A DNA stretch of 64,000 nt from contig OZ007515.1 in assembly GCA_963931865.1 (NCBI GenBank), positions 4,513,321 through 4,577,320 on the forward strand, in the 5' to 3' direction. Positions 15,013-55,450 of the stretch are shown piece by piece. Under the pieces are notes generated by a model that saw only the letters and a list, made by a program, of their open reading frames with translations, was not told the DNA's origin and did no database searches. The DNA comes from Axinella damicornis. Taxonomy: Eukaryota; Porifera; Demospongiae; Axinellida; Axinellidae. Each line of letters starts with the position of its first letter. Within the stretch, counting starts at the first letter, position 1. The translations under genes were made by a program, and so were the position numbers.

Positions 15013-15495
15013 ATGGAGAAAGGTATTCTTCTGAAGGACATGCTTGGGGAAAAGTCGGAATCTGTGTTGGGAGGTATTGTTAGGAGAGTGGTGGGGAGAC
15101 CGTCCACAACAAATATCTTGAAAGGTGAGCTTTTGGAGCAGATCCCTGGTGATGGTATCGTTCCAAGAAATGCGGGACAGAACTTTCAGAAGCCCTTCAA
15201 TTACCGTTTGGTGAAAGATCCAGCAGTGGCTGTCTATTGCAGTGAATTTGATGTTGCACCTCTGAGTGACAAGGAAATTCTCCTCTTGGAAGCAATTCAA
15301 TCTCAAAGTGCGCGTTACGAAGTGTTCATTGCTGGAAACAAGATGGAGTGGGGATGTGGTCTGAAGCCAGGTGACCCCGTGTGTGTCAGCATACCTGGCC
15401 TAATGATGATCCCAAATCAACGTGCTGTTGCAGTCATCCGCTATGTTGGAGGTCTTCCACCAGACCCAGGATTAATGTTCGGGATTGAAATCACA
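15013..15495 (+). CDS. Gene 1 exon 1: N-terminus and first half of CAP-Gly 1
   Basis: It starts at ATG 15013, just after a pyrimidine tract and GTTAG|GTCAACG that is also conserved before gene 2's ATG, which implies a 5'-UTR intron. The frame carries LKDMLGEKSES near the start, then LSDKEILLLEAIQSQSARYEVF, then GDPVCV and AVAVIRYVGGLPPDPGLMFGIEIT, the first half of a CAP-Gly fold. The donor is ACA|GTAAGC at 15495/15496, phase 0. Confidence 0.8.
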
Positions 15496-32447: not shown

Positions 32448-32921
32448 ATGGAGAAATATATTCTTCTGCTGGACAGGGTTGGGGAAAGATCTGAATCTGG
32501 GTTTGGAGGCATGTTTAGGAGAGCAGTGGGAAGACAGTCCACAGCAAATGTCTTGAAGGGAGAACTATTGGAGAAGAACCATGGTGATACAAGAAGTGAG
32601 GGACACAACTTTCAGAAGCCCCTCAGTTATCGTTTGGTGAAAGATCCATCAGTGACCGTCTATTGCAGTGCTGGTGATATTGCACCTCTGAGTGACAAGG
32701 AATTTCTCCTTTTGGAAGCGATTCAATCTCTAAGTGCGCGTTATGAAGTGTTCATTGTGGGTAACAAGCTGGAGTGGGGATGTGGTCTGAAGCCAGGTGA
32801 CCCCGTGTATGTCATCGTACCTGGTCGAACAGTGATCCCGAATCGTCGTACTACTGCAGTAATCCGCTATTTTGGAGGTCTTCCACCAGAAGAAGGATTG
32901 ATGTTTGGGGTTGAAATCACG
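32448..32921 (+). CDS. CYLD-like: Gene 2 exon 1: N-terminus and first half of CAP-Gly 1
   Basis: It starts at ATG 32448 in the same context as gene 1. About 158 codons are closely similar to gene 1 exon 1 (LSDKEFLLLEAIQSLSARYEVF, written in part; GDPVYVIVPG; AVIRYFGGLPPEEGLMFGVEIT split as in CAP-Gly folds). The donor is ACG|GTAAGC, phase 0. Gene 2 lacks three residues relative to gene 1. Confidence 0.85.
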
Positions 32922-35900
32922 GTAAGCTATAGAATTTATGCGTTAAATTTTGTAGGGGACTTGCCCATTAATTGTCTCTCCCAGCATCATTCTCTTTGAT
33001 TGCCAAGTGAGAATTGAGGCGTATGATCGTTCTGTGTGGGGTGGAAATCTGGGCAAAATTATGTATAAACAATAAGAGTGTGCAACTGTCATATGGTTTC
33101 CACTACACATTTCTCTGCAGTATGACTGGCAAATCATTGTGGCCCACACGTGCATGGGCTGTGTAAACACTGTAGTAATCACAATTTCCTTCTCGTGCCC
33201 AATCTTCTCTGGGAACGAGACTAACTTACTTACTAGGAGCATGCAGCTGCTACTACTTTATAGTCTCATGCGCATACATCCACACCCACTGGCGGAGAAC
33301 AGCTGGTGGTTTGAGTTATATTTCTTGTCACAGAGGCATGTCCAGCGTAGGTGTAATTGAAGCACTGATTGCACTAATAATGTTACATTCCTGGTAGGGG
33401 AAAAATTGTGCCGCGTAAATATTGTAAATATTAAACGAGGGGCAACTGCACTCCTGGTAGCCGCGGTTAAACGGTAGCACAAGCTAAGTGTGACAGTTCG
33501 TTCCAATTAACACACATGACGTGAATACCATGATAGCTATATATAGATAGGGAAGATCAGAAATTATTTCGAGTGCTCTGAAGTACCAAATAAAACCGTT
33601 CATAGCCGCGTTGCGACCCGCCGCAGTGCAAGCTAAGTGTTGCAATTCGTTCTAATTAACGCACATGCCACGTGGCAACCACGCTCAGTCGTCGCGAGCA
33701 ATGGCGACCAAAAGGACATTATTACAGCACTCACAGCTTAGCCAGCACGGTGAGTTTTGGCATGTAAGCGACAGTGATCACGGCTGTATGGTCAGAATCT
33801 TTGTGGGGCCTTCGTAAGACTGTACTGGCAACGAACTTCGAAGAGAGTGATCGAGCAATGGCGACCGACGGCATGACAAAAGCGCTTGTATCTCTAACAC
33901 CATGGTGAGTTTCAGCACCAAAATTGTGCGGTTGGGTTGCTGCATGAGCGATCAAGACGGTGTAGTCAGAATCTCTGTAGGCCATTCCTATCTCGCGAAC
34001 GAGTTATTTATTATATATTATTTATTTACGCGGCACAATTTTTCCCCTACCAGGAGTGTAATAATTAACGTCTGACTATATTTACGAATGGCCTGTAAAG
34101 ATTCTGACTACACCGTCGTGATCGCTATCATGCACTGTCCTCACTGAACAATTTTGGTGCTGAAACTCACCTTGGTGGTGGAGATATGAGCGCTTTTGTC
34201 TCGCCGTTGGCCGCCATTGCTCGAGCGCTCCATCGACTTCCGGTGGCAGTACCGTTCTTAGGAAAGGCACACGAACATTCTGACCACACGGCCGTGATCG
34301 CTGTCGTTCACTGACGCTTACATGCCGAAACTCACCGTGCTGGCTAAGTTGTGAGTGCTGCAATAATGTCTTGTCTTCCTTTTGTCGCCATTGCTCGCGA
34401 TCGACTGAGCGTGGTTGCCACGTGGCATGTGCGTTAATTGGAACGTATTACTTAGCTTGCAGTAGTTGACTTTGAAGCATGTTCTGTTGGTGTAGTCTCA
34501 TACCCAGGCCCACATGCGGAACGGGGAAGCGTGCCTGGTGACACTTGGCAAAATTTCCGTATGTGCCCAGTCAGCATAATTGTGTAAGCGATTACATTCC
34601 TTACTTGGATGCATTCGAATTCACCCAGCAGGTAGCTGTTGGCTACATGTAGTAGAAAGCCCTTGCCAAGGAGCGACCAGAAGTGAGTCTTGAAGGCGGT
34701 TTTATCAAACAGCTACACTTTTCACGTGGTGAAATTATGTAATTACTATGCAGTAATTGGCAATGGACGAACATGATTCGCCTACCCAAATCAAGACTGC
34801 TGACCTCAGCACATACAGAATTTTGCCAAGTGTCACCAGGCCCACTTCTGCGTTCTGTGTGTGGGCCAGGGTACGAGGCTACAGTTGGTGTGTCATCCAA
34901 GCATTTTTAGAGATAAAGTGGTTACAAGAGTGGATCAATCAGACTTGGTCAGGGGAACCTGGGAATGAGGCTAGAGCCTAGCATACCATTGTACTTCTTG
35001 TCATATGTGGTGGAGGAATGGTACGAATATGGTGGGGGCAGAGCCCCATCCACAAATGGAAATTTAATTGTACTGCAGACCAAGAAGATTGAGAACGAAC
35101 AAAGTAGTTTTGTAACCCCTTAACTCTCTTAGCTAGCATTGTTGGTCTCTATACTTGGCCTGTGCTTTACTGCTACTGCTTTGATTCAGATGCTATGCTA
35201 CCACCCTCAGTTGTAGCTGGACCTGTATTGTAGAGGTACCGGTATTGTAGAGGTACCTAATTAGGCATGCATGTATTGTCCACCCACCATTGAGCAGTTG
35301 TATAAACAACAAGCGCTGCGTGAATATCAATGATCTGGCCTAGTTCCCAACAGATGATTGAGCTGTTTCATGAGCAGAGAGAACAAATGGAGGAATCTTC
35401 TTTGGGCCGTGGCCTAAAATTGTTTCACCTCTCAGTATCTGAATCTGAATCTGAATTTATTTTTGCTATAATATAGCGTGGGTACACAAAAGGTAACTAG
35501 ACCTATAGGGCGTGCTCCCCACTGTACACACAGAAAATGACAACAACAAAAAGAAAAAGAAGAGGAAATAGGGGTACAAAACAAGACAAATACACAAACG
35601 GTAATCAATTAGGATAAAGGTGAGAGGCAAGGCAGTCCCTGAAAGTCTCAGGGCAAACTACACACAACAAATAACCAGGTAACTGATTCCAAATAAACGG
35701 TGCGTTTACAAAAAAAGAGTAGCGAAAAGTATTTACACGAGAAGGTAAAAGACAAATATGCAGTGGATGATAAGACCTGCTACTCAGGTTATTACAGAAA
35801 CGATAGTATTTTTGGAAGTTAATACAATCAAGACTATGTACAATTTTATAAGTTTGTAAATTTAAAAGGAAAAGACGTCTTGCACGAAGAGATGGGAGAT

Positions 35901-38900: not shown

Positions 38901-41900
38901 AATATTTACAAGCCATAAAATCCCGAGAAAAGCGAGAGCCAAATTTCGCACCTCCATCTCAACGTCACGTGTTTGCACCAGTACAGCCACCACAGCAATA
39001 TGATCAACCCCCAGCATGGCAGATCTTCACTAAGATGTCCTTGTAGGCATGGTAACCTCTCACCATCAACTCAACAGAAAATGATGTCATGAAAGGGTGT
39101 GGTCAATCAGCTTAGTGGAAGCTAATGTGAAAATAAGAATACCGTAGTCTCTCGAAAATACGCCCATGGGCAATGAATTTAGAATCTGCTCAAAGAGGGG
39201 GATGGGCGTATTTTCGAGGACCCCTCTCCCGAAAATAGGCCCACCCTTGACTTGAAAGTAGGCCCACCCAATTCGAAAGTAGGCCCACCCAAGTACATGC
39301 GTATACGAGTGCAATACTGCAACAGTCATTCTAGCAAGGCTTAACTACTACTAGTCCCGGAGTTTCTTGGTGAGCAGGAACAATCTCTTTGTGTGTGTAG
39401 CTACAGGAACAGCAAACAAGACACTGCTTGAATGACGTAGAGTGCGCAGACTATCTTCGGGACTTGCCGATTGCTGCTGCTTCTTCCTAGTCCGTAGTGC
39501 GCTGCTAGTGCTACGCTAAGGCGATTGCACACGCGAAGACACAAACATGCAATGCACAGCGCGTGCACAGTCCATGTCATGCATTCAGTACACAGCTGAT
39601 TATGCAATGGCATGCAACATAATGAAATTCATTGCAAATAGTACGCGATAGCCAGCCTTCATTTCTTAGTCCAACCTCTTTGACAGTGCTTCTTCCGGAG
39701 CTATTCAAGTGCTTTTCCTGTTCGAGCTAATAGGGTGGGCGTACTTTCGAGTAATAAATGACCCTTTGCAACAACTTGTCGTGAAAAAGGGGGGTGGGCG
39801 TATTTTCGAGGGTGGGCGTATTTTCGAGAGACTACGGTACAAGATTTCAATTGCATGTAATTTTGTACCTGCAAACATTTCCAGCTGTACGGTATTCAGT
39901 AGTGCAGCTATATTGATGAGGTACAGGACACATCTGTATAATCATGTAAGGTGTAATTGCAGGTCAGTGTGTATACTAGCCTCGTTCCTAGTCTAACAAG
40001 CTAGCTCTTTGCTTTCTCCAGCTCACAATCACTTCCCCATGCGATCACGTGAGTCGATCCGTGCTGGGAAAATTCGAGGGGCTAGCCTGCTAGACTACCT
40101 CGATCCCAGGCCTCCACACCCAGCTTTTGTCGCTTGCAGCGGTTTTCTTTCAAATCCGAGGTATGTTGTATAGGTAGGACCTGCCTCTCCTCTGGAGTTT
40201 GTCTGGTCTTTGTAGCGTCCCTAGAACAGGTGATAGCAAGTTGAATATGTATTAATGGAAACCATGACGTCAGTGGCGGCACGCATCACATGAGAAATCC
40301 GTCCAGGCCTTCCCCGCTTTTTGTACTGAGTAATACAATGGGGGTTATAACTTGGAAGCGCTTTTAATTGTACTGTTCACTCTGTGCAATGAGCCAGCCA
40401 TAGCTCTGGAAAGTACAACACTTGCAGCTCAGCACTACTTCAAAGGTATGAGTTCTAGCTTGGATAAGCTCGCTGTGGCTCTCTTCTGGCCGTTGACCTG
40501 TCTTATTACGCGATCATAGCTACTGTACTAGTCTGTAGTGCCCTTGAACAGATGACGCTTTATGACGGTTGCAGCACACATCACGTGAGAATCTGTCCGG
40601 GCCTTCCCCCCACTTTTCGTACCGCAAACAACAGAAGCTGGGCGTGGAGGACTGGGAACGAGGCTACACATATATGTGTATATCATGTTCCTGTGCCTCA
40701 GTAATTATATTCCTATCCATGCAGGATGAGCAATATTGTGGTCATGGCACTACTGATGGTACTTTCCGTGATTTGAGGTACTTTGCCTGTAAAGAAAAAT
40801 GTGGGCTCTTTGTGCCACTTGACAAGCTCTCAAAGAATCCTGACGGCAGCATGTACACCCGTGAAAAGGCGGCACGTGGTGGTCAGAGCTATGCCAGTGT
40901 TGACTACAAGAACAAACCTCATCCTACTGACAGCATAGATTTGGGGAATACCTCCACACGGGCCAAGGAAATGGGAATATCAAAGAAACAGCTGATGGCC
41001 GACCAAAAAGCTGTACTTAGAGAAGCAGAGAAATCAAAAGCAGCTCAGGAACTGAAGCAGGAGGCAGTACCTGATCAGAGTTTTGATTTACTAGCTGCCC
41101 AGAGAGCTGCTCTTCATGCTTTTAGAAAGGATGACAGCGAAACAAGGTCCTCCCTTCCTCCCAGAGGTGAATGTTATACTGATGACAGTGTCCATCTGCG
41201 ACCACGCCCACCTCAAATACAGCATTCATATGAACCTGTGAATAGCAGTCCTTCTCAACGCAAGCATCTGGGTAGTCAGACAAAGTCTGCGTCATTGGCC
41301 CGTAGAGAGCAGATTTACACCCGCGTTGACTCCCAAGGTTATCAGCAGAAGCCATCACACGAGTATGCACAACCACACGAGTATGCACCACGCGAGTATG
41401 TACATTCACAGCCTTTCCCACAAAATTTGTCTGACCAACAACTACCAAGGTTGTACGAACATCCACAGAGTGAACATCCTCTACAACAACCACCTTATAA
41501 GCAACCCTTACAACACCAACCACCACCACAATGGTTGCTACATCATCCACAGCAGCTCCCACAACCACCACTTTACCAGCAACTCCATCAGGCGTTTGTT
41601 CCCGATCAACACCAAGTGCATCAAAGCTTGACCATTGGCTCTACAGTTCAGCTTGTTACATTTAGTGATGCTGGTCCTCAACAACCTCGATATGGAGTGA
41701 TTCGTTGGATTGGGGAGATTACTGGAGTGACGGGAACCATAGCAGGAGTTGAATTGGTATGATGAGAAACTGGTTTTGTATGTACCATTAGCATGGGTGG
41801 ATCAAAAGGGCTGTACACTTAAGCACCAAAAGGTTAAGAAGTGATGTTCTTCCAAGACAATACTGCTTTCAACTAGACTCCATCTACAGTTAAGTGGTCC

Positions 41901-44900
41901 ACTGTGTCCCACTTTCAAAGAAACATCGCAATGAAAAAGGTTAGGACGAAGCTGACACACATGCAGATACTAAACTAGGGTGGCATTTATTTCATTCAGC
42001 CCTTTTGAAGGTGTGACTATTAGCCACAAATCAAGGGTGGTGTGTGATCGTGGAAACACTGTAACAGGTGATCACTTGCTTGCCATGCACACATCCAGGA
42101 GGATCCCATGGAAGGATGTGCTGATGGAACCTTTCAGATGACAGGGCAGAAATACTTTGACTGCCCAGATGGAAGAGGTCTCTTCTTCCCACTTGTACAT
42201 CTCAAGCCAGATGAGAGGTTCACTGATCCTGGAGCAACCCCTGCAGTGCCTGCTAACCGTAAGTACTATATTGTGTCACATTTTGAGGCACAGGTTTTTC
42301 TTGTGTCTTTGTGGAATTGCGTAGTAGGCTCGTGCATAGAATTTGTTGACTCATATCGTACTAATCACCTAGACAATGCCTTGACTAATTGCTTCCTAAG
42401 GAAAGGCCTGGGAGAGTAGTCATAATTATGTGCATGCGGTCAATAAAAAGCTGACATAATATTTGAGTTAGTACTTAGCATCATGGGTGTAACTAGCATT
42501 GAGGCAGAGGAGGCAGCTGCCCCCTCACTTTTCTGAATAATGACGGGCGTGTCTTAGATCCTCACACACGCCGCATTCAATGTGCGTTCAATCTGATGGC
42601 AGAGACTGCAGCTAGGCTGACCATGAGCCGGTGTACTCCTAACACGGATAAAATGCTGCAAGTCCGGGACAGTCAGGGCACTGTTTGCGTGCTCTGCGGA
42701 AGTAATCGTGCGGAAATAATTAACTCATGAATAATCTGAGAATCGTTATAGTTTCTGTTAATAATACTGCGAGGCTATAGTCCGAGGCTAGTTCGAGGCT
42801 AGTCCGAGGCTAGTCTGAGGCTAGTCTGAGTCCGAGGCTAGTCTGAGGCTAGTCTGAGGCTAGTTCGAGGCTAGTCCGAGGCTAGTCTGAGGCTAGTCTG
42901 AGTCCGAGGCTAGTCTGAGGCTAGTCTGAGTCCGAGGCTAGTCTGAGGCTAGTCCGAAGCTAATCTAAGGCTAGTCCAAGGCAAGTTCGAGGCTAGTCCG
43001 AGGCTAGTCCGAGGCTAGTTCGAGGCTAGTCCGAAGCTAGTCCGAGGCTAGTTCAAGGCTAGTCTGAGTCCGAGGCTAGTCTGAGGCTAGTCCGAAGCTA
43101 GTTCGAGGCTAGTCCGAGGCTAGTCCGAGGCTAGTTCGAGGCTAGTCCAAGGCTAGTTCGAGGCTAGTCCGAGGCTAATCCGAGGCTAGTTCGAGGCTAG
43201 TCCGAAACTAGTCCGAGGCTAGTTCAAGGCTAGTCTGAGTCCGAGGCTAGTCTGAGGCTAGTCCGAAGCTAGTTCGAAACTAATCCGAGGCTAGTTCGAG
43301 GCTAGTCCGAAGCTAGTCCGAGGCTAGTCCGAAGCTAGTCCGAGGCTAGTCCGAGGCTAGTTCGAGGCTAGTCCGAGGCTAGTCCGAGGCTAGTCCGAAT
43401 GCAACTGAAAATAACACATCAGGCCACAGAATACTGTCAGTCACTGTCATATAGTTGTTGTGGTAGATTTTACAACCATGCTGTTTCTATAGCCCTTGTC
43501 AGGTATCCACTGGAAGAGCGAGCAGACCAGACAGTTATGCCCAACCAGATGGAAAAGTACGTGGGGGATGAGCGAGGGATACAGGGCCACCAGAATTCCT
43601 GCTACCTGGATGCCACTGTGTTCGGGCTGTTTGCTCTCAGTGAAGCCTTTGATTCTATATTCCTGCCGGAAGCAAAGGATGCTGCTGGGAAAGAGATCCG
43701 TAGTATACTGCAGAAAGACATTGTCAATCCACTTCGAAAGTGAGCAAATCTATACATAGACTGGTGCTACAATATTGACATTTCCTGGCTTTGAAAGGCA
43801 GTTTGCATCAGCAGACAAACCCTTGTTTACAACTACTAGGCAAATTTGAGAGTGCAAGCCATGGCTATGTATAGAAAATGACTTTGAAGACAGCCAGCAA
43901 TAACCAGCCAATCATCAACGCCGCAGGTTAACACTGCTAGTGACTGTAAGCGTGGCAGCATGCCGAAACTACATTGCAGTGGGCCAGCTACCACAAGCCT
44001 TTGCCAAGAAGACAAACGCCTGAAATGTAAGTTGGAGCTTCTCCAGTGTCCTTTCGAACATGCATGACAACACCTTCCCATGCATTGCTTTAGCTTGCCT
44101 CCTTGACTACAAGTTGGAAAACGCATACATGCTGTATCCAACATTCGTCTTGCAATCCTATCGGTTAGAACTATTCTAGTCTAATATAATTATGGGTGGT
44201 CTCTGAAATTCAGGAATGGTGCTGTGAGGTTTGAGTCTGTGATGCGGCTGAGGAACAAGCTGGAGGAGCTCGGCAAGATGAAGGGAATTGCTCAAGATGA
44301 GAAAGGTATTATCAGTCTACTAACACACCAACAAGAGGTGCAGATTCTCTGTTACCTTTAGCTTGGAAAACGTTTTTGCTGACGTTTCAACTGAATACTT
44401 CAGTTAGTGAGTGCAAAAAACCCAAACATTAATAGCCGTACACTACTGAGGATACACATCGGAAACATCACTGGGCCAGAGGACGGGGAACTACGAAGCC
44501 CTGCAAATCCAGATGACACCTGCAGAGGAGTAGCACTCCAACTGAGACAGAGGGCTGGAGATGCCAGGTTGCTGGACTGCAGTAATGAGGAGGCAGGAGA
44601 GGAGCAATCCTCATCAACCTTTGACCTCTGACTCCCAGTTGATGGGTGTATGGTGGTTCTCCCATGCATGCTCCACCACAGCCTCTGTCATCCCTCTCTC
44701 ATGGACATCTCGGTGTTCCTTCAGTCTCATCTCGGTTTGGTCTGAAGCATTCAGTTGAAACGTTGGCAAAAATTTCTGATCAGATGAACAGATAAGCCTT
44801 GAGATATGTAATTTAGTATCATGCAGCCTTAGCTGTAGCACAGCAGTGTAAACTGTGAAATACATCCTTAACTCTTTAAGGCCCAAATTTCTTTCTCTAG

Positions 44901-47900
44901 CTCATTTTCAGTCTGTAAAACACTTAAACATACCCTAATTTCTGTTCCCTGGCGTTGCTGGGCTCGAAACTGCTCACACAGGTAATTTCAGCTACACTAA
45001 GCATATACGTGACTTAATCACACCCACCAACTAACGAACTTGCAATCAAGCCTCCCGAGAAGTGGCCAACCTGCCGTAGCTAAAAAATGGACCATGAACA
45101 CTGGAAATGGAGAGCCTACAAGGCAAGACAGCTACTTTCTAAGTCCATTTATGCCAAAAACGGCGGAAATGGCCCTCCCAGTGCCGACCAAGACCTTTCT
45201 ACCGCGGAGCCCAGACACGGCCATGCTGTTTGCACCCTCCAGGTGCACCCACCCACCTCCCCCTGTCCCGCCCTTTCTGCTGTCGCAGAACCTATCTCCC
45301 AAGGAAGTCACATGATGAAGCTGAAAGTATTATGACAACATTTGGCGTCATTAGGTGGGAAAGGGTTTTAACTTTGACTACATCCAGGGAAACTGTAGGT
45401 TAGACCACTGCTGCTTCATACAGTCATTAGCAGTACCAATACATGGTGTGACATCTCACAATGTCAATTGTGATGTGTGACACTGGAAAGGTTTGATGGT
45501 ACGTAGAATCAGAACCAGATGATCCTTGGGTTCGGACTCACTTGGTATAGCTGAGATTACCTGTGTGAGCAGTTTCGAGCCCAGTAACGCCAGGGAACAG
45601 AAATTTGAGTATGTTTAATTAAGTGTTCTACAGGCTGAAAATGCCCTTGAGAAACACTTGGGCCCTAAATAATAGCAAGTGCAACATTAGCTTTCAGAAT
45701 GAACTTGAAGCTTGTCTAGCAAAGGACCAAATATTTCCATCAACAGTATACCTTAAATAGTAGCTAGTTCCCTTGGAAAATTCCTAGAGGAGGTTGGACA
45801 CGGTCATGTGACCTACGTGCGTAGGCGAATTTATATGGATGTTGACTATACTGAAGAGTGTCTCGGTAGTCTTTACGAGTATCTCAACAAACTTGACATC
45901 ATTCGAAAGCTCTAGTGGAGTAGATTCCAAATATGCCGTCAACCCCATTCAACCCCTGGGTCACTTAGGCTGTACGGCCTCTTGAAGGATTGCCCGTGCT
46001 GGATGGCAGAGAAGCCAGTGTTAAGAGACACTCGGTACTCCAACTGGAAGCCTTCCCAACCTGAAGCGTCTTCAACGTACTCCTACCTTTCAATCTCCAG
46101 CTTCACTTCTCGTTGGCACTTTACGATCACCTTCGGTCTCATGCAGGCCATATTGACATGGGAACGAGGCTTTTTGGCGAGGTTTTTACATGAAATACGC
46201 AATTATTATTTCCGTTCGCATCCATAGTCACGTGCACAGAAAATGTGTCCAACCTCCTCTGCAGGAAGTTCCAGGGGGAGTGAAACTATTCAGCAGCCAA
46301 GTTGTATTCTAGCTACACTGATTTCCTATCTATGGGTAGCTACGTAGCTAGCACAACCACATTGTGTTATAAGCGTCCCTGGATGGCTGTATTGATGGAT
46401 TTTTATTGAAGTGGAGTATCCAGAGTTTAGTCCTGTTGTACCTCTTGATGTAGCTAAAATTATATTGGCATTTCTCTTCTGTCTACACAGATCCGGAGGA
46501 GTTTCTGAACATGCTTTTCAAGCACACACTGCATGTGGAACCGTTCATCAGAATCAGGTGGATATCTACATGCACATACATGTACAATGAGTGTGTATCA
46601 TTGTGTGGTGCAGGGGTGTGTGTGTGCCAGGTGTGTGTGTGTGTGTCTTACTGGTCTTCATTCCCCTCAGACGACCCTTTGGAACAGAGCAGGAGTATTT
46701 TGTGCAGCTGTTTTTGGAGTATGATGAGTCAATGAAGCTACCATCTGTGGGAGATCTCCTTACAAAGATGTTCAAGGAACAGAAAATATCTTTTACTGAG
46801 GTATTTTGACTCACGATGTTTACACTCCTGGTAGCTATAGGGGAAATCTCCTGGTAGGAGAAAAGATCTGTGAAATAACATGTTTAAGCATTCAGGGAAG
46901 GAGGTCGAAGATTGTGATTATGATTGCCATTGTGCACTGACCATTACGTACTCGAGACTTGTGGTAATGCATGTAACGGACTTGCCTGTCAATTCAGTCA
47001 CTAAAATGACCAAGGTGGCCAATGGGAGGGTAAAAGTGCTTCAACTTCACCACTAAGGGCACATTATCCCTCCAGGTATGTTTGGTTGCCATTTCTGGCA
47101 ACTTTTGGTACGCCCGTTACTAGCCAAAAATGGCTAAAACTTGACCATAGTTGCCAAAAGTGGCGCACATCTGTCCTAGGATATTCCGTTGCCAAATATG
47201 GCAAGTATATGAATCTATTCCTATAACTACCATGTTTGGCACAATTTGGTAACAACATTATTGCCAAATATGGCAAGTATATGAATCTATTCATATAACT
47301 ACCATGTTTGGCACAATATTATTTGGTAACAACATTATTTGCCAAATCTGGCAAGTGTATGAATAGATTCATATAACTACCATGTTTGGCACAATTTGGT
47401 AACAACATTATTTGCCAAATATGGCAAGTATATGAATAGATTCATATGTTTGGCACAATTTGGTAACAACATTATTTGCCAAATATGGCAAGTATATGAA
47501 TCTATTCATATAACTACCATGTTTGGCACAATTTGGTAACAACATTATTTGCCAAATATGGCAAGTGTATGAATAGATTCATATAACTACCATGTTTGAG
47601 ATGGTTTCACCGGTAGGAAAAGAGCGAGAAAGGACTCATTTACACCCATTGCTGTGAGAAAGCCAAAACGCCATTAGCATTAAACTGACTTATCTTGTCA
47701 TTGTCACTTGATTGATTATTATGCTGCATACATAATTGATATTGTAAACTTGTAAAATCTGATATCCAAATTTGGCAATATTTGTGACTAGAGGAAGTGG
47801 AAATCCATGCATGTACTTGCCAAATATTGCTTCAACAGGAAACCAAATTTGGCAATATTTGTGACTAGAGGAAGTAGAAATCCATGCATGTACTTGCCAT

Positions 47901-50900
47901 ATTTGGCAAATATTGTTTCAACAGGAAACTAAAAATATCCAAATTTTGTGGAAATTCTATATAAGTAACAGCGAAAATTAAATCTGGCCATTTTGTCAAA
48001 ACAGGACATTGCCAATTTTGGCAATGACCTGGACCAGGCCAAAAGTGACCAAATTTGGTTACTAGTTGGCTCTAATATTTATGTCAAGATGTTGCCATTT
48101 CTGGCAACTTGTACTCCCATCAAGTTGGCAACGGCATTGACATAGCAAAAGTTGGCAACTTTTGGCATGTGAAGAAGTTGCCATTTTTGGCAACTTGGTG
48201 GAATGCGCCCACCAAGTTGCCAAAAATGGTAACATCTAGACATACCAAAAGTTGCCTGTCCAGGAGTTGCCATTTTTGGCAACTTGGTGACTACATTCAT
48301 CAAGTTGCCAAAAATGGCAACTTCTGGACATACCAAAAGTTGCCACAAATGGCACCAAAACATGCCTCCACATTATACGCTTGAGTCACACATATATGTG
48401 TGCGTTAATAGGGGCAAAATGTATAAGCTAGGTGTAAGAAACCAGGAGCACACTCTTCCATAGCAACACGGCTATGCAATGTATTGAGGGAACACCATGC
48501 ACACCCTTGGAAGCCAGAGTGTTTCACAACTGCATGCGGTTTGGACTCGATCCTGTGCAGCACCAGCTGAAGAATCAGCATCAGTCAACACTTCTCTGCA
48601 TGGATGACCAAGCAGCCCTCTTGTCTGATATGCCTATGCAGATTGCATAGATATGAGCATCGACTGCCAGTGTGCCATGCAGTGTGCTGCATTTCAAGTG
48701 AAATACTGGAGTATGAATTATTGTGAATTCATTCACTGGGAATGAATTTAACAGAACACTTTTTGGACACACTATTCACTGGACTAGCTGAAGCACATTG
48801 CTCTTCCTCCGTTTCCATAAATCTCTATAGGCTGTTAGCCGGCAAAAAAGTGCTGAGTCAGCAGATATGGAAATAAGTATTTAGGTCCTTTGATCTTTGT
48901 TGTGTGTGAGTTTGTTTGTCATCATACACTACCTATTCAGCTGCCCTCGAAGTTGCTGATCCAGGTCCCAAGGTTTGGAAGGCAGTTCAAGACCTATCAG
49001 AAGATTATTGCGGACCTTAACCTGGACATCATGCACCTCACCGATTCCCCAAGTAAGCACTCTGAGACTGATATATAATCTAGCCGCTAATCTCCATGAC
49101 AGCGGCCACCAATTTAAGTGGATAAGAAGAGCATTTTCAGTGGAACTTAGTACAGCATGCACTGCTGTTTCTCACAACTTAGCTCCAGAGCTAAGTCAAG
49201 GCTGTGTTGGGACCTTGTGCATCCAGGGTGGAAGTAAGGATATACTGTATAGCGGGAATTTTGGTACTGTGCAAATTTTCTCGCCATTGCCATGCTGACT
49301 CATTATTGACATGACTGAGCATGGTGAGCGAGTGATGGCACTTGTAACGGTATTTCTAGCCTTTGAACAGCCTTCCACACTCCAGTGGACCTGTCTACAC
49401 CCATTAATTAGCCTGCCATGGTAACGAAGCTATGGGAAGTGCGACAGATGAAATTAAGACAAGTTCACTGAGCAGCAACAATCGGTGAGTACACCGCCAA
49501 CCAAGAAGCTATTCATCATTTTCCGAAATTCCTACCAACAACAGAGGCTCAGATGTCAGCATTGTAGACGTGGTACCCTCTCACCATTGTGCATTGCCTC
49601 AACCGAAAAAGGACACCATTGACACGTTATGTACATGTAATGCTAGGTGGCATGGTAATACATAAATAGGCATTTCGGTATTCTGCATAGGCTATATCTG
49701 GATAAATGGATGTCAACTGTTGCTTGCAGATCCCTGCTTCATTTGCGGTGAATCTGCCCGGCTGTGGTGTGCAGAGTGTATGACAGAGTTTCAGCAATTG
49801 GAAGATCCTGTCCACTTCTGTCTTGGCTGCTCTGAGTCAATACATGGGCGCCCTCATCGAATCGGCCATAAGGTTGACATGCCTCAGGAAGCTGCTGTGA
49901 GGTTGGAGTTGCTCTCCGTGATCTGCATTGAGACTAGCCAACATATCAGCTTCACGCGAGCAGAGAACCGGTGGATATTCTTTGACAGCATGGCCAACCG
50001 AGTCTGTAAGTTATAGAATGTACCTGGTATGTAATGTGCCATGAAGCTAGTTACATTAGGTGTTCTGTAAGCAGCTGTGTTGTAGACTCCTTACATATGC
50101 ATATTGTCCCAGATACAAATAATAACTTTAAATGTGCAAAACACATGTTTATATAGTTTGAACCATGACTGTCATGCATTTCTGAAGTTCTGTACAGACC
50201 TTTGCAGGTTGGTTGTTCACAGGCAAAGTAGATAGGTGGGGATGTGATTGAATTAGTACACCTCTCAATCACCTCCTTAAGAGACCAACCTGCAAAGGTC
50301 TGTAAGGCTTCAAGCTGTATAGTCTCGGCCCCAGACCCAAACCAACCCCAGCGTGGATCGCTTCCAGTATCACGCACGGGGAGGGAGGGTCTGGCCAAGT
50401 TGCGACATAAAAATTAGTCGTCTGCGGAATTTCAGAGGGCTGAATCTGATTGGTTGATTGTCTAGTAATGACATTTGGAATGTTCACGCCATGCGTGCCG
50501 TGCGCTAATTCATGCTAGCTAGCTGCTGTACGAGTCAACAAAGTGGTTGAGACCGCGATTACAGCTGTATTTTGCCAACTGGGGTCGACGGTCACTAGCT
50601 ACGGTGAAGTAGGAACAGCTCTAAGTTGCGAGAGAGCTGGTGAAAGGACAAACTGTTGCATGGTTTGAATCGATTCCAATGGGCAGGATCGAATGTCGCT
50701 CCGCTGTATAGTGGATGCCTGCCTCCTGCAGTGTCAGGGAGAGCTGATTGTCATTGTAATGAACCCTCTGAAGGTGTTCATGTTACCAGGAGCACCGCTT
50801 CGCGGCGCTCAAGGCCTCCTGATGTAGACCGTGGACTCTCTGTGCTACCTGGAGTTGGCACTTGTGGCTCAATATAGAGGGAACAGAAACTGTAAGAAAA

Positions 50901-53880
50901 GGCTATAACCGGTTATTTAAGTAAAGAGGGAGAGTGTCCCGGGATGTTGAAGTGGGCTGCTACTGGCTTCTCAGTTCTCTTGTTCTTGATGTCACTGCAG
51001 TGTCCATTGAGGCGGATATGGAAGGGGGTTCTGTGTTTCTCTCACATACTGCTTCTTGCATCACCTGCACTCGATGAGGTAGATGACATTGCTCGTCTTG
51101 CAGGTGGTTGTATATAGCTCGTACGTGGAAGGGCTGGCCAAACGCTTCCCCAGTCGCTGGCATGTGAGGCACCGTCAGTTGCCACAAGGGCTGCTGCCAA
51201 GGTTCGACTCACTGTTGGGTGGTTTGAGTTGGGCGCTGACCAAGAGGTTCGTAGGTTTTTTGGTCGGCGGTAGGCCACAATGGGAGGCTCTGAAATGGCC
51301 TGTTAGGCGGTGGGAGGCGTGCAGTACTGGTAGGAACTCCCTATTAGATGGGGCAGGTTGGGGTGGTAAGACACTACCAGTGGAGTCCTCTTGTTGTTCT
51401 ATATACTCTGTCCCTTTGGTGTGAGGGCTTCTCCTCGGCTGATGTGTCCTGCACGGTCAATCTGTCCCTGCACTTTGGATGCGTCATAGCCCCGGTGGAT
51501 AATGTGACCCTTAATTCAGCTCAGAAGTTCTTTTTTTGGAAGTCATCTTCTGATGAGCAGATGTGCCTCATCCGAAGGGCTTGACTGAAGGGGGTGGCTT
51601 CTTTGCAGTGCATGTATTACTGTTTGAGGCCAGGTACTAGTGGGTGCACGTGGGTGGGGGTATCAGTGGGCTTCACATGTAGTACATCCTACTTTCAGCA
51701 TCAATATACCGAAATGTAGGTCAGTCTAAAACCTGTCACCGAAACAGACAGCCACATCGAGCATACAGCCCATGCGATTGCGTTAAACTGCTTGTGTCAT
51801 GTCAATTTCTACTGCAGTGACATGTCACAGGGCTGTACGTATGCACTGCAACTATGCATAATTATCATTTCTTTCTCTGGTATCCATTGACAAAATGTGT
51901 ACACTATCTCATGTCCAGTATATACACACTCCACGCCTCCTATAGTTGACTAAGACATCCTTGACAAGAAATAACATGTAAATTTTAGCAGGAAGTCTAC
52001 ATGTCATAACAAGGGTACAACAGTACATTATACCGTGAGCTCAGGACTTATGAGTCATGACAAGCGTACATTGGTGAGTGTGGTTTATTCCTAGTTAGCC
52101 ATACCCATTTGCTTCCTACATGCCAAAACGACATGATTCTTGGGACACTTCATGTAGTGACCCTTGGACAATGGCTATTTCTTTTATACAGATGATATGT
52201 ACAACATCCCTAAGGGAGTAGATTGCACCCAAGAGCTGAATGAGTGGGTGTACTCTGGGAATCACCAGCGACTTCTGGACACCCCACCTCGAGAGCTTCC
52301 TGAGTATGTCCGCAGGTTCACTCAGGACATCTACATGTGTGTGTACATTTCACCTGATGCTGGAATGTATGAAGGTGGACCATCACTGGCAGGTAGGTGT
52401 GCCAATTCTGCAAGTATGTGGGTCCTTCTTTGACCTTTTGATGACTCTATGTGTAGATTACCAGCCTGTGAAGAGCAAGGATCAACTGAAGAAAGAAAAG
52501 GCTGAAGTTGAGAGAATACCAGATGAGAGGTACAAAACCCTTGAAACCCAATTGTCACAAGCCCAACGTGAGAAGCAAGACCTACAAGAGAGGCAAACAG
52601 ATTTGGAGCAGCAGCTTCAGAAAGAACGACAAGATACACATCAATATCTGCAGGAGTTACAGCAGCAGATGAAACAAGAGAGGCAGCAGATGAGAGAGGA
52701 GAGGCGGCAGATACAGGAGGAAAATAGGCAGTTTGAGCGCCAACTGCAAGAGCAGATATCTGACAACCAGAATCTTCACCGCCACGTAGTAGATGCCCAA
52801 AGTGAGGCACAAAAGCAGGCACTCGAGAAGCAGGACCTCCAAGAGAGACACACACATTTGGAGCAGCAGCTTCAGCACTTAGAGCAGCAGCTGAGACGGG
52901 AGAGGCAGCAGACACAGGAGGAAAAGAGGCAGCTTGAGCGCCAACTGCAAGAGCAGATAGCTGACAACCAGAGTCTTCACCGCCAAGTAATAGATGCCCA
53001 AACTGAGGCAAGAAAAACACAGCTGATACAACCGCAGGGCGTACTTGAAGACATTGAGTGTTGGAAAGTTCCTCGTAGTGATGTCCGAGTGGTGAAGGAA
53101 ATTGGGGTAGGTGCATGGGGTTCCGTTTCAGAGGGCAAGTACAAAGGCCAGCCAGTTGCTGTCAAACAGCCACACCGAGCCATTTTGACTCCACCAATTG
53201 TTGAGCGCCTTCAACGTGAAGTGCAAATCATGGCCCAAGTCCGCCACCCCAACCTAGTAAGGTTCATCGCAGCAGTGTTTGACGATAAAGTACAGAGGCT
53301 GAAAGAACCTCCGATGATTGTCCTTGAACTTCTTGACATGAACTTGCGTGCAGCATACGAGCGAGATGTTGTAGGAGCCAGTCAAATTCCTATCTTCCGA
53401 GACGTAGCCTATGGCCTCCACTATCTCCATGAGCACCAGGATCCTATTATCCACAGGGATATTAGTTCTCCTAACGTCCTCTTAGAGGCTCTTCCCCAGG
53501 GAGCTTGGAAGGCCAAAGTCTCTGACTTTGGATCTGCAAACTTAGAAAAGCGTTCCAAAACAGCAGGAGAAGGGGCTATCATTTATTCAGCCCCTGAGAC
53601 ATTCCCACACACGGACCCCACCACTCTCCCGCCACCCCAAACAACGAAAATAGATGTCTTCAGCTACGGAATACTTCTCTGTGAAGTAATCACAAAGCAG
53701 CTGCCAGAAGACCCAACCAAGTACCGGAGCATGCTGCAGCACGTCCAGAGTCAGTGGCCGTACATGTATGACCTCATTGTTTCCTGCACTAAGCGTGATC
53801 CTAATGAGCGACCTACAATGGCCCAAGTGCTTGATCAGCTGAACAAGCTCCCTCGTCCCCGATTTCGCCAGCGCAGTTAG
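32448..53880 (+). CDS. CYLD-like: Gene 2: CYLD-like deubiquitinase fused to coiled-coil protein kinase (11 exons)
   Basis: Exons: 32448-32921, 40725-41756, 42099-42258, 43493-43739, 44214-44305, 46491-46557, 46671-46800, 48941-49052, 49730-50005, 52192-52392, 52457-53880. They sum to 4,215 nt and every junction phase fits, giving 1,404 residues. Domain order: CAP-Gly 1, Gln/Pro/His-rich linker, CAP-Gly 2, CYLD-type USP with inserted zinc B-box, coiled coil, protein kinase. The USP part follows vertebrate CYLD block by block to its very C-terminus (the 'YMCVYISP' region), where CYLD normally ends; here a donor joins it to the kinase exon. CYLD cleaves K63/M1 ubiquitin chains in the cytoplasm; the fused kinase is new to me. 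The alternative is two genes with no stop between them; the shared phase and the same join in gene 1 argue against that. Confidence 0.8.
33386..34058 (+). mobile_element. Dispersed repeat (CACTCCTGGTAG family) in gene 2 intron 1
   Basis: It begins CATTCCTGGTAGGGGAAAAA and ends with the complementary TTTTTCCCCTACCAGGAGTG, with TA at both borders. Inside are further copies of the TIR (about 33450). The next stretch, 34059-34450, is a partial copy in reverse. Confidence 0.65.
34059..34450 (-). mobile_element. Partial reverse copy of the same repeat
   Basis: It matches 18985-19370 in the same orientation, with shared GACTACACCG(C/T)CGTGATCGC and TTCCGGTGGCAGTACCGTTC. It forms a large imperfect inverted repeat with the neighbouring copy. 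Confidence 0.6.
34493..34881. mobile_element. TAGCCT-family TIR element, 9-bp target duplication
   Basis: The ends TAGTCTCATACCCAGGCCCA and GGGCCAGGGTACGAGGCTA are inverted. The flanks CTGTTGGTG (34484-34492) and CAGTTGGTG (34882-34890) match at 8 of 9 bases. It is the same subfamily as 58006-58406 (shared CACTTGGCAAAATTYC and GATTACATTCCTTACTTGGA-type interior). Confidence 0.8.
35605..37794 (-). pseudogene. LINE reverse transcriptase frame
   Basis: The frame has 729 codons. Motifs seen: NYRPISLT (about 295-302), QHGFR (331-335), VFIDFAKAFDSV (364-375), SGVPQGSVLGPLLF (422-435) and FADD (453-456), the RT active site. The RT core is uninterrupted. The first ~30 residues are the endonuclease tail read in the wrong frame; the frame joins the endonuclease in a run of Cs near 37735-37742. 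Confidence 0.85.
37700..38356 (-). pseudogene. LINE endonuclease frame with a changed catalytic Glu
   Basis: An APE-like endonuclease with GDFNVPSINW and a final ADHHAI block. Where the family has I-T-E-T-W-L, this frame has ITKTFL (about residues 20-25), so the catalytic Glu is Lys and the Trp is Phe. The usual SDH is ADH. With the frameshifts on both sides, the element is very likely dead. Confidence 0.8.
38343..39017 (-). pseudogene. LINE N-terminal frame: 2A-like motif and PHD finger
   Basis: ATG at 39017. A hydrophobic stretch lies at about residues 25-42. LLLSAGDIHSNPGP lies at 96-109, a 2A-like ribosome-skipping motif with His where active 2A peptides usually have Glu. A PHD finger follows (Cys pairs CAIC, CDKC, then H..C and CPSC, about 119-173). 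It ends in LNARSIVNN and then a stop, one frame away from the endonuclease, so a frameshift is present. Confidence 0.8.
39142..39837. mobile_element. TIR element with repeated CGAAAATACGCCCA ends
   Basis: The left end CCGTAGTCTCTCGAAAATAC and the right end GTATTTTCGAGAGACTACGG are perfect inverted repeats, with TA at both borders (39140-39141 and 39838-39839). Sub-repeats of GGGTGGGCGTATTTTCGAG occur near both ends. A TA border suggests a mariner-like or Harbinger-like family. No transposase is seen. Confidence 0.75.
40096..40666. mobile_element. TAGCCT-family TIR element before gene 2 exon 2
   Basis: The ends TACCTCGATCCCAGGCCTCC and GGAGGACTGGGAACGAGGCTA (given in part) are inverted, with an inner arm GAGAAATCCGTCCAGGCCTT matched at 40590-40610. 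No target duplication is visible. Confidence 0.6.
40725..41756 (+). CDS. CYLD-like: Gene 2 exon 2: end of CAP-Gly 1, long Q/P/H linker, start of CAP-Gly 2
   Basis: Acceptor CCATGCAG, phase 0. It opens with GTTDGTFRDLRYFACK and CGLFVPLDKLS, the CAP-Gly 1 closing half. A linker of about 250 residues is charged at first (KKQLMADQKAVLREAEKSKA) and then rich in Gln, Pro, His and Tyr. It ends with GSTVQLVTF...YGVIRWIG...GVEL, the first half of CAP-Gly 2. Donor TTG|GTATGA at 41756/41757, a weaker donor but in phase. Confidence 0.8.
42099..42258 (+). CDS. CYLD-like: Gene 2 exon 3: second half of CAP-Gly 2
   Basis: Acceptor ACATCCAG. The exon reads GCADGTFQMTGQKYFDC and GRGLFFPLVHLKPDERF, a standard CAP-Gly closing half. 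The donor AACC|GTAAGT leaves phase 1. Confidence 0.8.
42771..43399. repeat. 11-bp minisatellite (GAGGCTAGTCC)n in gene 2 intron 3
   Basis: About 57 near-identical copies with TCC, TTC and TCT variants and occasional six-base inserts (TGAGTC). There is a higher-order pattern of longer blocks repeating. It ends about 90 bp before the exon with the catalytic cysteine. Confidence 0.95.
43493..43739 (+). CDS. CYLD-like: Gene 2 exon 4: USP Cys box
   Basis: The acceptor TTTCTATAG at 43484-43492 fits the phase left by exon 3; the nearer AG at 43502 does not. GIQGHQNSCYLDATVFGLF is the CYLD-type Cys box with the catalytic Cys. It ends in DIVNPLRK, as vertebrate CYLD does at this point. The donor AA|GTGAGC leaves phase 2. 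Confidence 0.85.
44214..44305 (+). CDS. CYLD-like: Gene 2 exon 5: USP helical segment
   Basis: Acceptor AATTCAG. It reads NGAVRFESVMRLRNKLEEL, matching the CYLD segment that follows the Cys-box domain. The donor AAAG|GTATTA leaves phase 1. Confidence 0.75.
44873..45670. mobile_element. Long-TIR element in gene 2 intron 5
   Basis: The left arm (CTTTAAGGCCCAAATTTC and then CTGTTCCCTGGCGTTGCTGG) is matched in reverse at 45580-45670 (CCAGTAACGCCAGGGAACAG and GGGCCCTAAAT). The interior shares GCACCCACCCACCTCCCCCTG with 13500-14475 and 56700. No protein is seen. Confidence 0.7.
45787..46259. mobile_element. MITE with GAGGAGGTTGGACAC ends
   Basis: GAGGAGGTTGGACAC at the left and GTGTCCAACCTCCTC at the right are perfect inverted repeats. 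The next internal bases also match in part (GTCACGTG-type). No target duplication is obvious. Confidence 0.7.
46491..46557 (+). CDS. CYLD-like: Gene 2 exon 6: USP core
   Basis: Acceptor GTCTACACAG. It reads DPEEFLNMLFKHTLHVEPFIRIR when joined to exon 5 (written here as the 23-residue block, positions 46491-46557, key residues EEFLN and VEPF). It aligns closely with CYLD. The donor CAG|GTGGAT leaves phase 2. Confidence 0.75.
46671..46800 (+). CDS. CYLD-like: Gene 2 exon 7: USP core
   Basis: Acceptor TTCCCCTCAG. It reads YFVQLFLEYDESMKLPSVG, then LLTKMF and KISFTE, like the CYLD segment before the 'PRFG' strand. Donor GAG|GTATTT, phase 0. Confidence 0.75.
47060..47600. repeat. 70-78 bp satellite with TTGCCAAATATGGCAA palindromes
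   Basis: Five to six tandem units, each with TTGCCAAATATGGCAAGT, ATGAATCTATTCATAT and CATGTTTGGCACAATTTGG. Each unit is rich in short palindromes. The array lies in gene 2 intron 7. Confidence 0.85.
47765..48360. repeat. Diverged TTGCCAAA-rich hairpin array
   Basis: A duplicated block with TTGGCAATATTTGTGACTAG (47775 and 47850) is followed by several hairpins of the form AAGTTGCCATTTTTGGCAAC near 48175-48340. The same TTGCCAAA core as the previous array suggests common origin. Confidence 0.75.
48941..49052 (+). CDS. CYLD-like: Gene 2 exon 8: USP core strand
   Basis: Acceptor CTATTCAG, phase 0. It reads LPSKLLIQVPRFGRQFKTYQ, then IIADLNLDIMHLTDSP. The PRFG block is diagnostic for CYLD. The donor CCCAA|GTAAGC leaves phase 1. 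Confidence 0.8.
49240..49670 (+). mobile_element. Dispersed repeat, copy B (pair of 29355-29940)
   Basis: It shares ACTGTATAGCGGGAA, CGGTATTTCTAGCCTTTGAA and ACCCTCTCACCATTGTGCAT with copy A. It is shortened at the 3' end, and lies in gene 2 intron 8. Confidence 0.65.
49730..50005 (+). CDS. CYLD-like: Gene 2 exon 9: B-box and USP His box
   Basis: Acceptor TTGCTTGCAG. A B-box-like zinc module is complete: CFIC, CAEC, CLGC and then IHGRPHRIGH. Further on is CIETSQHISF, and then WIFFDSMANRV with the Asp of the triad. In vertebrate CYLD the catalytic His follows 'ETS' directly; here that place is Gln and the next residue is His. The donor GTCT|GTAAGT leaves phase 1. Confidence 0.85.
50310..50880 (+). 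mobile_element. Truncated copy of the 27064-29190 element
   Basis: It starts TAGTCTCGGCCCCAGACCC (50320) and matches the right end of 27064-29190 in reverse, including ATGCTAGCTAGCTG-type flanks and the frame NPLKVFMLPGAPLRG. The left half is missing. It lies in gene 2 intron 9. Confidence 0.65.
50881..52191. other. Gene 2 intron 9, remaining part
   Basis: No exon or transposon end is recognised here. Open frames occur but lack family similarity. Confidence 0.45.
52192..52392 (+). CDS. CYLD-like: Gene 2 exon 10: C-terminal end of the CYLD module
   Basis: Acceptor TTTATACAG. It reads YNIPKGVDCTQELNEWV, then RRFTQDIYMCVYISPDAGMY. Vertebrate CYLD ends a few residues after the matching YMC.YQSP block. 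Here the frame continues to GGPSLAG and a good donor, CAG|GTAGGT, phase 1. Confidence 0.8.
52457..53880 (+). CDS. Gene 2 exon 11: coiled coil and protein kinase
   Basis: The acceptor ATGTGTAG at 52449-52456 gives phase 1, completing a GAT codon with exon 10. About 190 residues of Gln/Glu/Arg/Leu heptads follow, containing an internal duplication (QLQEQISDNQNLHR and QLQEQIADNQSLHR). The kinase has IGVGAWGSV, VAVK, REVQIM, HRDISSPNVLLE, SDFGSAN, APE, DVFSYGILLCEV and ERPTMAQV. Every catalytic residue is present. A Pro-rich loop (TTLPPPQTTK) precedes the DVFSYG helix in both paralogues. Stop TAG is at 53878-53880. Confidence 0.9.
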
Positions 53881-55285
53881 TGCACTCGTCTGGACATCTC
53901 AACTCCTTTTTCATTGCTAATTTTGCTGCAGTTATGGGGCGAGCCTGAGCGAGCCCCACTTATACGAGAGTGCTGTAAATTTTATAAGTGATGCCGTAAA
54001 TGACTTGCTGCTCTTATTTGTGTTCTTGGATCATTTGTTAATTCAAAAATGATTGTTGATCGATACAAACCATGAACGTCAATCATTCTACATTCAATTG
54101 GTACGTAGTTGTAACAGTATACTGAAATTAATGTAGCTATATAGGCTATCATGGTTTGACCCATTGCTGCGTATAATTATATATATATCAAGCAAGGCAA
54201 AGCATTGTTTGCATAAGCACAGTTTTAGTGTATATATTATATCGGCAAATGATTATCAACCGATGGTGTAATGGGATTTCCCCTTGTTTCTTTTGTCAAG
54301 AGGTGGAATGTGATAGCCACTACTCTTTGGTGATAATAGGGTTGTCATCTCTGCAGTATATCGTTGATGAGTGCATACACATGCAAGGAATACACATTAC
54401 ACTGTGCTATCTCTCCCCTGAAAGCTAAAAGATGCATAATATTATGCATGTGCATGAAATTGTGAAGCCAAGCATTGTTTGCACAAACAATCCTCCTTCT
54501 GGTCTGCATTTAAAGTTTGCACGTTGCGAGAGATTGGACTCTACAGAAATTGACTACAGATAGAATTGCACGTGTACAATTGCATGTGTGAATTGCACTA
54601 GCCTTGTTCCCAGCCTCCTCCCTAGCTGGGGAGGAGCCTGGGAATGAGGTACTTCATCATGCATGGGTGTGGCTGATGATCACACAATTATTGCCGTCAC
54701 CATAATTATTTGCATTGCCCCATGCATTGAAACGTTTTTGTAATATGAACTATGCCATGGCATAGGTCGTATTACAAACTTTACTGAGATCATGCAGTCC
54801 CTTCACTGATGAAATCTATTGCTTCAATACAACAAAACTAAACATGCTGACTCACGATTGTATAACTAGTGGCACAGCAATAATATGCACAATCCACATG
54901 TGTACACGTTCCCACATGCATGCATGCCTTTGATGTTGACGTACTGAGTCATGACTTGCTGTATGCAGCATATATATAGCGTCTCTTGTTTAGCTAGGAG
55001 TAGAGACAGACCACTTGCCTTGTGCCAGGCTGTGCAAGAGGAGAGACATCTCCCACACAGTGTAGTCATGATCGGCTAGTCTTCTACTGCTAGTTAGAGA
55101 CACCATCTACCCAACAGTGCAACAACTGCATGGGAGAAGCTTGGGAATGAGGCTAGCGACTTAGGAACACCACATCAGCTTATTAACTGAATAGTAGTCG
55201 TACTTCAAGTGCATTGCCATCCAGCCAGGTCTTACTGGAGAGTTGCCATGGCCACTGGCAGTACCACATCACAGTGCATAACACC
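53881..55285. other. Intergenic, no gene
   Basis: There is a GGGGCGAGCCTGAGCGAGCC motif at 53936, shared with 12415. A small hairpin at 54600-54653 (TAGCCTTGTTCCCAGCCTCC and its complement) is a TAGCCT-family remnant. No coding exon is supported. Confidence 0.5.
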
Positions 55286-55414
55286 ACATCAACCATAGCT
55301 GTCCCACCCCATATGCTACCCCCCAGGCTGGCCCACCCCCTATGCTACCCCCCAGGCTGTCCCACCCCTTATGCTACCCCCCAGGCTGTCCCACCCCCTA
55401 TGCTACCCCCCAGG

Positions 55415-55450
<36 letters not shown>

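Follow-up and report, generated by a model that had tools for sequence, protein, structure and literature searches.

The immune complexes on which CYLD usually acts have kinases that are proteins of their own. According to PMC5796713, human CYLD has three CAP-Gly domains, the triad conserved in USP enzymes is C-H-D, and a Cys-to-Ser change was used as a catalytic mutant of the worm protein; a figure legend there assigns RING finger, CAP-Gly and DUB domains to CYLD from five species, including Amphimedon and Acropora digitifera, and the term 'kinase domain' is absent from its text. In PMC8511506, ubiquitin is bound by CAP-Gly2 and CAP-Gly3 of human CYLD, the latter making contacts through Leu475, Val487, Arg488, Glu507 and Phe545, and KIF13B, which has Phe at the position of Leu475, did not bind ubiquitin.

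Here we describe a locus of the sponge Axinella damicornis at which a CYLD copy and a protein kinase are probably encoded as a single polypeptide. The gene resembles human CYLD in its order of CAP-Gly, CAP-Gly and USP with B-box, and differs from it in the number of N-terminal CAP-Gly stretches found (two by Pfam, against three in human), in having Gln for the catalytic His, in lacking the C-terminal stop, and in the coil and kinase that follow. A literature search, which covered mostly papers outside subscription, found no description of a CYLD-kinase protein or of a coil-kinase family, in agreement with the earlier note on this DNA, whose author knew of no described protein with CAP-Gly, USP, B-box, coiled coil and kinase in this order.

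The window analysed is a stretch of 64,000 nucleotides (C11:4513321-4577320) from a genome of 226 Mb in 120 contigs. When the exons were rebuilt with GT/AG ends, the eleven exons and the total of 4,215 nt described earlier were recovered, all in phase, giving 1,404 amino acids with no internal stop (Table 1); to keep exon 4 in phase, the acceptor at 43493 has to be used and not a tempting one at 43503, ten bases further on. From N- to C-terminus the model carries CAP-Gly domains of the CYLD type, the CYLD USP with its B-box, a coiled coil and a TKL-like kinase, in the predicted order. The domain search proposed in the earlier note returned two CAP-Gly stretches and one kinase domain from Pfam and no USP family at E 0.01, and the USP was recognised by alignment of exons 4-10 to human CYLD 2vhf (E 1.8e-70, residues 3-373 of 374), which includes the Cys-rich B-box insert. 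Exon 1 is 71% identical to a paralogous exon at window position 15013. As exons 4-10 sum to a multiple of three, direct joining of exon 3 to exon 11 would preserve the frame as well; this symmetry is weak by itself, because 14 of the 45 contiguous internal exon blocks have it. Several repeats were noted by eye in the introns. On the minus strand of intron 1 (35605-39026), long frames (731, 222 and 227 aa) resemble a retrotransposon of the LINE type that encodes an endonuclease and a reverse transcriptase, and they include a PHD-like Cys/His stretch; a tandem array of a GAGGCTAGTCC-like unit occupies much of intron 3 (42770-43400); and intron 7 (47060-48350) holds many copies of motifs like GCCAAATATGGCAAG and TTGCCATTTTTGGCAACTTGG, some of which look palindromic. 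Just 3' of the gene (55298-55551) lie C-rich direct repeats with a poly-C run of about 30 bases.

Table 1. Features of the CYLD-kinase gene and of a neighbouring unit, in window coordinates
Feature	Position	Strand	Content
Neighbouring array unit	15013..20893	+	CYLD-type CAP-Gly exons, then coil-kinase exon; no USP match
Exon 1	32448..32921	+	N-terminal CYLD-type, first CAP-Gly begins; ATG start, GT donor
Exon 2	40725..41756	+	End of first CAP-Gly, proline/glutamine-rich stretch, start of CAP-Gly3-like domain; Pfam CAP_GLY, two stretches
Exon 3	42099..42258	+	Remainder of CAP-Gly3-like domain; phase-1 donor; nearest solved structures CYLD 1ixd, 7owd, 7owc
Exon 4	43493..43739	+	USP; catalytic Cys box NSCYLD intact; aligned to 2vhf
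Exon 5	44214..44305	+	USP; conserved in unit B
Exon 6	46491..46557	+	USP; conserved in unit B
Exon 7	46671..46800	+	USP; conserved in unit B
Exon 8	48941..49052	+	USP; conserved in unit B
Exon 9	49730..50005	+	B-box insert; Gln at catalytic His position (ETSQHISF); Asp box FFDSMA intact; unit B has ETSHHISF
Exon 10	52192..52392	+	CYLD C-terminal exon; no stop up to phase-1 donor
Intron 10	52393..52456	+	64 nt, links CYLD part to kinase part; ATG 52441 in kinase frame
Exon 11	52457..53880	+	Coiled coil and TKL-like kinase; stop 53878-53880; Pfam Pkinase E 1.4e-32
USP block, exons 4-10	43493..52392	+	1,125 nt coding; symmetrical phase 1-1

By alignment, exons 1-10 are CYLD. Among solved structures, CYLD CAP-Gly3 is the nearest match of the CAP-Gly domain in exons 2-3, and in the alignment with that domain Val487, Glu507 and Phe545 are identical, Leu475 is Phe, and the contact Arg is also identical, the residue taken as this contact counting to 489 on the alignment. 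Most of the ubiquitin-contacting residues are thus retained, and the fused copy may bind ubiquitin; the change from Leu475 to Phe may weaken such binding. The catalytic triad is incomplete: Cys and Asp are present and the equivalent of human His871 is Gln. His871 is the catalytic His of human CYLD, a number that agrees with chain position 289 (+582) if the 2vhf chain starts at 583. The motif could be located in 161 of the proteins fetched; His occupies this place in 160 of them and Tyr in the remaining one. Since the residue aligned to His871 is Gln, deubiquitination is probably lost or impaired, and the fused copy is probably an inactive deubiquitinase, which goes against the earlier reading of the gene as an eraser of ubiquitin signals joined in cis to a kinase. 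The adjacent His leaves some doubt, for a Gln-His pair could still support some catalysis.

Protein kinases are recognised by the Gly loop, the VAVK Lys, the HRD Asp/Asn, DFG and APE, and the usual form of the third of these is HRDLK. The kinase domain of exon 11 lies over the curated cut-off of PF00069 (113.5 against 31.7 bits), and its translation contains GVGAWGSV (Gly loop), VAVK, HRDISSPN, SDFG and SAPE. Among the best 60 of 1,997 solved matches CTR1 comes first, followed by EGFR, a Src/Abl ancestor, Fyn, RAF, TNNI3K and roco4; we call the kinase TKL-like on this ranking alone, in which the tyrosine kinase entries EGFR, Src/Abl and Fyn are interspersed between CTR1 and RAF. It differs from the TKL kinases CTR1, RAF and TNNI3K in having HRDISSPN and not HRDLK, and in its N-terminal partner, a deubiquitinase copy. 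Identity with RIP kinases, which the earlier note mentions for the pathways on which vertebrate CYLD works in trans, was rejected, no RIP kinase being present among the same best 60 of 1,997.

On sequence comparison, the kinase part is a member of a large coil-kinase family with varied N-terminal partners. The coil-kinase follows eleven ubiquitin domains in P0009, and elsewhere HSP70 (P0019), SPRY (P0037), an AIG1/septin-like GTPase (P0049), kelch (P0065) or, by eye, a second kinase (P0005 and loci L013 and L014 of the Axinella damicornis genome); this variety supports a general design of sensor plus kinase. Many ubiquitin-like domains followed by the same coil-kinase were also noted in P0009 to P0018 and others, and L013 and L014 (C7:1.30-1.31 Mb), each one continuous frame (735 and 771 aa, respectively), seem on inspection by eye to be tandem kinases, in the order kinase-coil-kinase. 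A JAMM-like domain on the Actinia tenebrosa coil-kinase P0137 was considered and is not claimed (Prok-JAB 20.9 bits, below the cut-off of 25; the PDB search gave nothing useful). The N-terminal region of P0137 is weakly like Prok-JAB, possibly another deubiquitinase-type fold on the same kinase family.

The junction between the two parts is where the single polypeptide has to be weighed against two adjacent genes. The donor after 52392 (CAG/GTAGGT, a good one) and the acceptor before 52457 (GTGTAG) together make a GAT codon, so the claim that the acceptor completes the split codon holds. The companion claims, that exon 10 ends in a good donor and has no stop, stand for the donor and for the frame as far as the donor only, because the unspliced frame runs on for 13 further residues (counting the split codon) and stops at 52431-52433. 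If these were adjacent genes, CYLD would end at 52433 with 13 extra residues, the coil-kinase would have its own start, for example the ATG at 52441 or an unseen first exon, and the fusion would be a model artefact or rare readthrough. That ATG, which could start a separate kinase protein, is found within the intron of unit B as well, and the acceptor has a poor pyrimidine tract (6/11); both points favour adjacent genes. So does a search with exons 9-11 for shorter junction-spanning proteins (candidates of about 348 to 1,108 aa), which found none among the best 120 of 537 matches: coverage there was at most 78%, about the length of exon 11, and hence none of these is shown to cross the junction. 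Against adjacent genes, no AATAAA or ATTAAA was present in 49000-55500, and in the frame of the near relative P0241 the codon corresponding to ATG 52441 specifies Ile instead of Met, a weak argument because the listed P0241 protein starts at another Met nine residues upstream.

The surroundings of the gene bear on the same question. Searching the genome with the kinase exon gave 92 matches (90 of 1,070 candidates scored), several of them clustered on C11 around the window, and a search with the USP gave 29, all on C11. As a separate observation, kinase matches genome-wide number at least 128, with dense clusters on several contigs (127 of 1,648 candidates scored), and the true number is larger. 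Between 4,455 and 4,583 kb of C11, surveyed except for 2 kb (4475000-4476999), eight family kinase exons lie on the plus strand, one of them broken (4470400-4471490). All eight are preceded on the same strand by CYLD-type N-terminal exons, which argues against adjacent genes; one further CYLD-type N-terminal fragment (4512.8-4516.2 kb) is not followed by any kinase match until the next unit is reached. USP matches within the array are confined to unit B (4501.5-4509.9 kb) and unit C, the CYLD-kinase gene. Units A and U1 have phase-1 donors at their last CAP-Gly exons; the kinase exons of A, B, C and U7 in turn receive a single base, provided that the AG in front of them serves as the acceptor. 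The array thus shows both orders, CAP-Gly to kinase and CAP-Gly to USP to kinase.

Units B and C, 57 kb apart, have a common donor and acceptor and a near-identical intron (65 and 64 nt, respectively, with one indel and four substitutions), and the indels between their exons measure 18 and 21 nt. On sequence comparison, the recurrence of the junction in unit B, and in the predicted homologues from Halichondria panicea treated below, is more than chance. The USP of unit B keeps the catalytic His (ETSHHISF). Its exon 10 has an in-frame TGA before the junction where C has Trp, which counts against fusion function in B and, with the kinase of B well conserved, in favour of adjacent genes. Just upstream of this exon lies a partial second copy of exon 10 in which the Trp is kept (L040, about C11:4508246). 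The kinase of unit U2 has two stops. Purifying selection is evident in the kinase of C compared with that of B (23 silent and 7 replacing changes, omega 0.09, p 4e-10) and with that of A (omega 0.12). The part of exon 11 before the first Met has an excess of silent change between C and A (omega 0.38, p 0.02, from rounded counts), as expected if the stretch were translated from an upstream exon; between C and B it has 3 silent and 10 replacing changes with no clear constraint (omega 0.75, p 0.71, also from rounded counts).

Two further CYLD copies lie on the minus strand of C11, D1 at 4370-4377 kb and D2 at 4388-4397 kb, and the kinase-exon search of the genome matched no family kinase near them. 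Both stop right after ...MYG at the USP C-terminus, whereas the polypeptide of the fused gene runs past this point; of the usual CYLD ends compared, P0003 ends at MYG and the Amphimedon CYLD P0008 14 residues beyond it. D2 keeps Cys, His and Asp. D1 (L045 and L048, C11:4367500-4378500) has Ser for the catalytic Cys (NSSYMD) and is for that reason probably another dead deubiquitinase.

Relatives with CYLD USP and kinase in one protein, for which the earlier note had proposed a search of other sponges and cnidarians, do exist as predicted models in Halichondria panicea and Acropora muricata; these predictions are already in databases. A protein search with residues 560-1404 passed 617 entries at E 0.001 (7,977 scored), and the top two of the best 120 are the Halichondria proteins P0001 (LOC135340804 isoform X2; 47% identity, 99% coverage) and P0002 (CYLD-like isoform X3; 42%, 99%). 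Both have CAP-Gly and kinase by Pfam, with the CYLD USP and the coil readable in the sequence, and P0001 reads ...MYGDGGEEDHQPHSVRE against ...MYEGGPSLADYQPVKSK in the Axinella damicornis gene. A third Halichondria entry, P0004, takes in CYLD, the coil and the first part of the kinase. The Acropora muricata protein P0024, named myosin heavy chain-like, is predicted to have CAP-Gly, CYLD USP, a long coil and kinase. The Halichondria fusions and that of Acropora muricata all retain ETSHY. Another Acropora muricata protein, P0121, has three CAP-Gly domains, coil and kinase without a USP, and Acropora palmata P0123 and Montipora P0147 are of the same kind; CYLD-type CAP-Gly, coil and kinase also stand together in P0288 and P0311 (Pfam) and in P0243 (CAP-Gly by eye).

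The full-length Halichondria models and the presence of CAP-Gly, coil and kinase within single listed proteins speak against adjacent genes. A point on the other side is the Stylophora model P0130, in which the parts are in opposite order, kinase before CYLD; annotation merging of neighbours does therefore seem to occur, a warning for the other models. It should also be noted that P0238 contains a translated intron, so some unnamed relative entries, at least, are unspliced open frames, and P0311 may be of this kind too. Weighing both sides, we consider two adjacent genes unlikely, though the alternative keeps real weight, and regard as likely the single polypeptide proposed in the earlier note, for which the frame, the splice sites and the homologous predicted models argue and which would be made from a spliced mRNA crossing intron 10.

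The history of such joinings was followed in two trees. The kinase tree has 101 rows, obtained from 108 matches after five under 220 residues (Stylophora P0130 and unit U2 included) and two duplicate loci, L042 and L043, were left out; the USP tree has 37 of 171 possible rows, hand-picked for spread, with about 20 residues of translated intron in the D1 row. Confidence in the trees is lowered by long branches, among them Aque_kelchkin and P0059. The seven kinases from corals and anemones group together as a clade (98/87); the eight-row branch around it (100/99) has the long-branched Amphimedon kelch-kinase as its other member. The fused Acropora USP is nested among Acropora CYLDs (100/100). 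These two results speak against a single ancestral fusion of sponges and corals and give good support, on the sequence data, to separate sponge and coral joinings; P0024 has the same domains as the Axinella damicornis gene and would have been joined separately. Within sponges, the Halichondria fused USPs stand apart from that of Axinella damicornis with moderate support (92/83, 82/68, 81/93), and in the best trees neither their kinases nor their USPs are in a clade with those of the Axinella gene. In the best kinase tree the five sponge CYLD-kinase rows do not group together, but the kinase data reject a tree that unites them only marginally (AU p 0.043), and all sponge fusions may still go back to one joining. 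The array kinases themselves fall in at least three places: A, B and C; U1, U3 and U7 with three C7 kinases; and U9 elsewhere. The trees thus indicate at least two CYLD-kinase joinings, and the earlier wording that this animal had made the fusion, which suggests one event, does not fit the Halichondria and Acropora models.

The open frame, the splice sites, the paralogous and homologous junctions, the loss of the His, the kinase motifs and most of the ubiquitin contacts are read directly from the sequences. The ubiquitin-reading parts are largely retained, the cutting residue has gone, and the kinase has kept its motifs and stayed under selection; a kinase recruited to ubiquitin chains and clustered there would suit this combination best. 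The stop of CYLD would have been lost and its last exon spliced to the phase-1 coil-kinase exon; CAP-Gly3 and the catalytically impaired USP would hold the protein on Lys63/Met1 chains at a receptor complex; the coil would pair or cluster molecules; and the clustered kinases would activate each other and then signal, ubiquitin gating the kinase. Granted a single polypeptide, this ubiquitin-reading mechanism is a tentative proposal that may well be wrong. Taken as a whole, the statement that the gene encodes a fused protein, and that this is a ubiquitin-reading kinase rather than a ubiquitin-removing enzyme, is one towards which we lean without great assurance.

Plant receptors with integrated decoys offer a comparison for another reading, in which the genes are modular intracellular sensor kinases whose baits are copied from immune components of the host (CYLD, ubiquitin repeats, HSP70, GTPases). 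The tandem arrays would suit it, as would the many different N-terminal partners on related kinases, the loss of the catalytic residue in the fused copy, and the conservation of the kinase between units when the N-terminal parts of the array are associated with three or more groups of kinases; we hold the CYLD part to be unlikely as an integrated bait. The reading put forward in the earlier note, a bifunctional enzyme with active deubiquitinase and kinase in cis that couples ubiquitin editing and phosphorylation, draws on the intact Cys box, Asp box and B-box, and on phosphorylation, which according to PMC8511506 stimulates human CYLD. It may hold for the Halichondria and Acropora muricata fusions, which keep ETSHY; for the Axinella damicornis copy, with Gln at the His871 equivalent and the other USP-bearing unit (B) interrupted, it is quite improbable. 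Least probable is a decaying duplicate, a pseudogene in the making with the lost His as its first visible lesion, which would match the nonsense codon of unit B, the two stops of U2 and the Cys-to-Ser change of D1, against which stand eleven open exons and a kinase omega of 0.09.

For the ubiquitin-reading kinase that we favour, the description 'eraser plus kinase' should become that of a putative ubiquitin-reading pseudo-deubiquitinase kinase, one of several sponge and coral CYLD-kinase joinings. In sponge and coral genomes a kinase can go unnoticed under a name such as 'CYLD' or 'myosin-like', and a 'CYLD' copy may have no catalytic activity. More speculatively, and with little confidence, we suggest that sponges and corals might use tandemly expanded intracellular sensor kinases, in which interchangeable N-terminal pieces of host ubiquitin, chaperone or GTPase proteins are combined with a coil-kinase output, and that CYLD was recruited to them at least twice and here disarmed into a ubiquitin reader or a microbial bait. 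If CYLD was joined more than once to a single family of kinases, in two animal phyla that branched early, this would point to a direct functional link between ubiquitin reading and the coil-kinase, and the CYLD-kinase genes would be a concrete set for testing intracellular sensing in sponges and corals, animals with dense microbiota. If true, the class would be an animal counterpart of receptors with integrated decoys.
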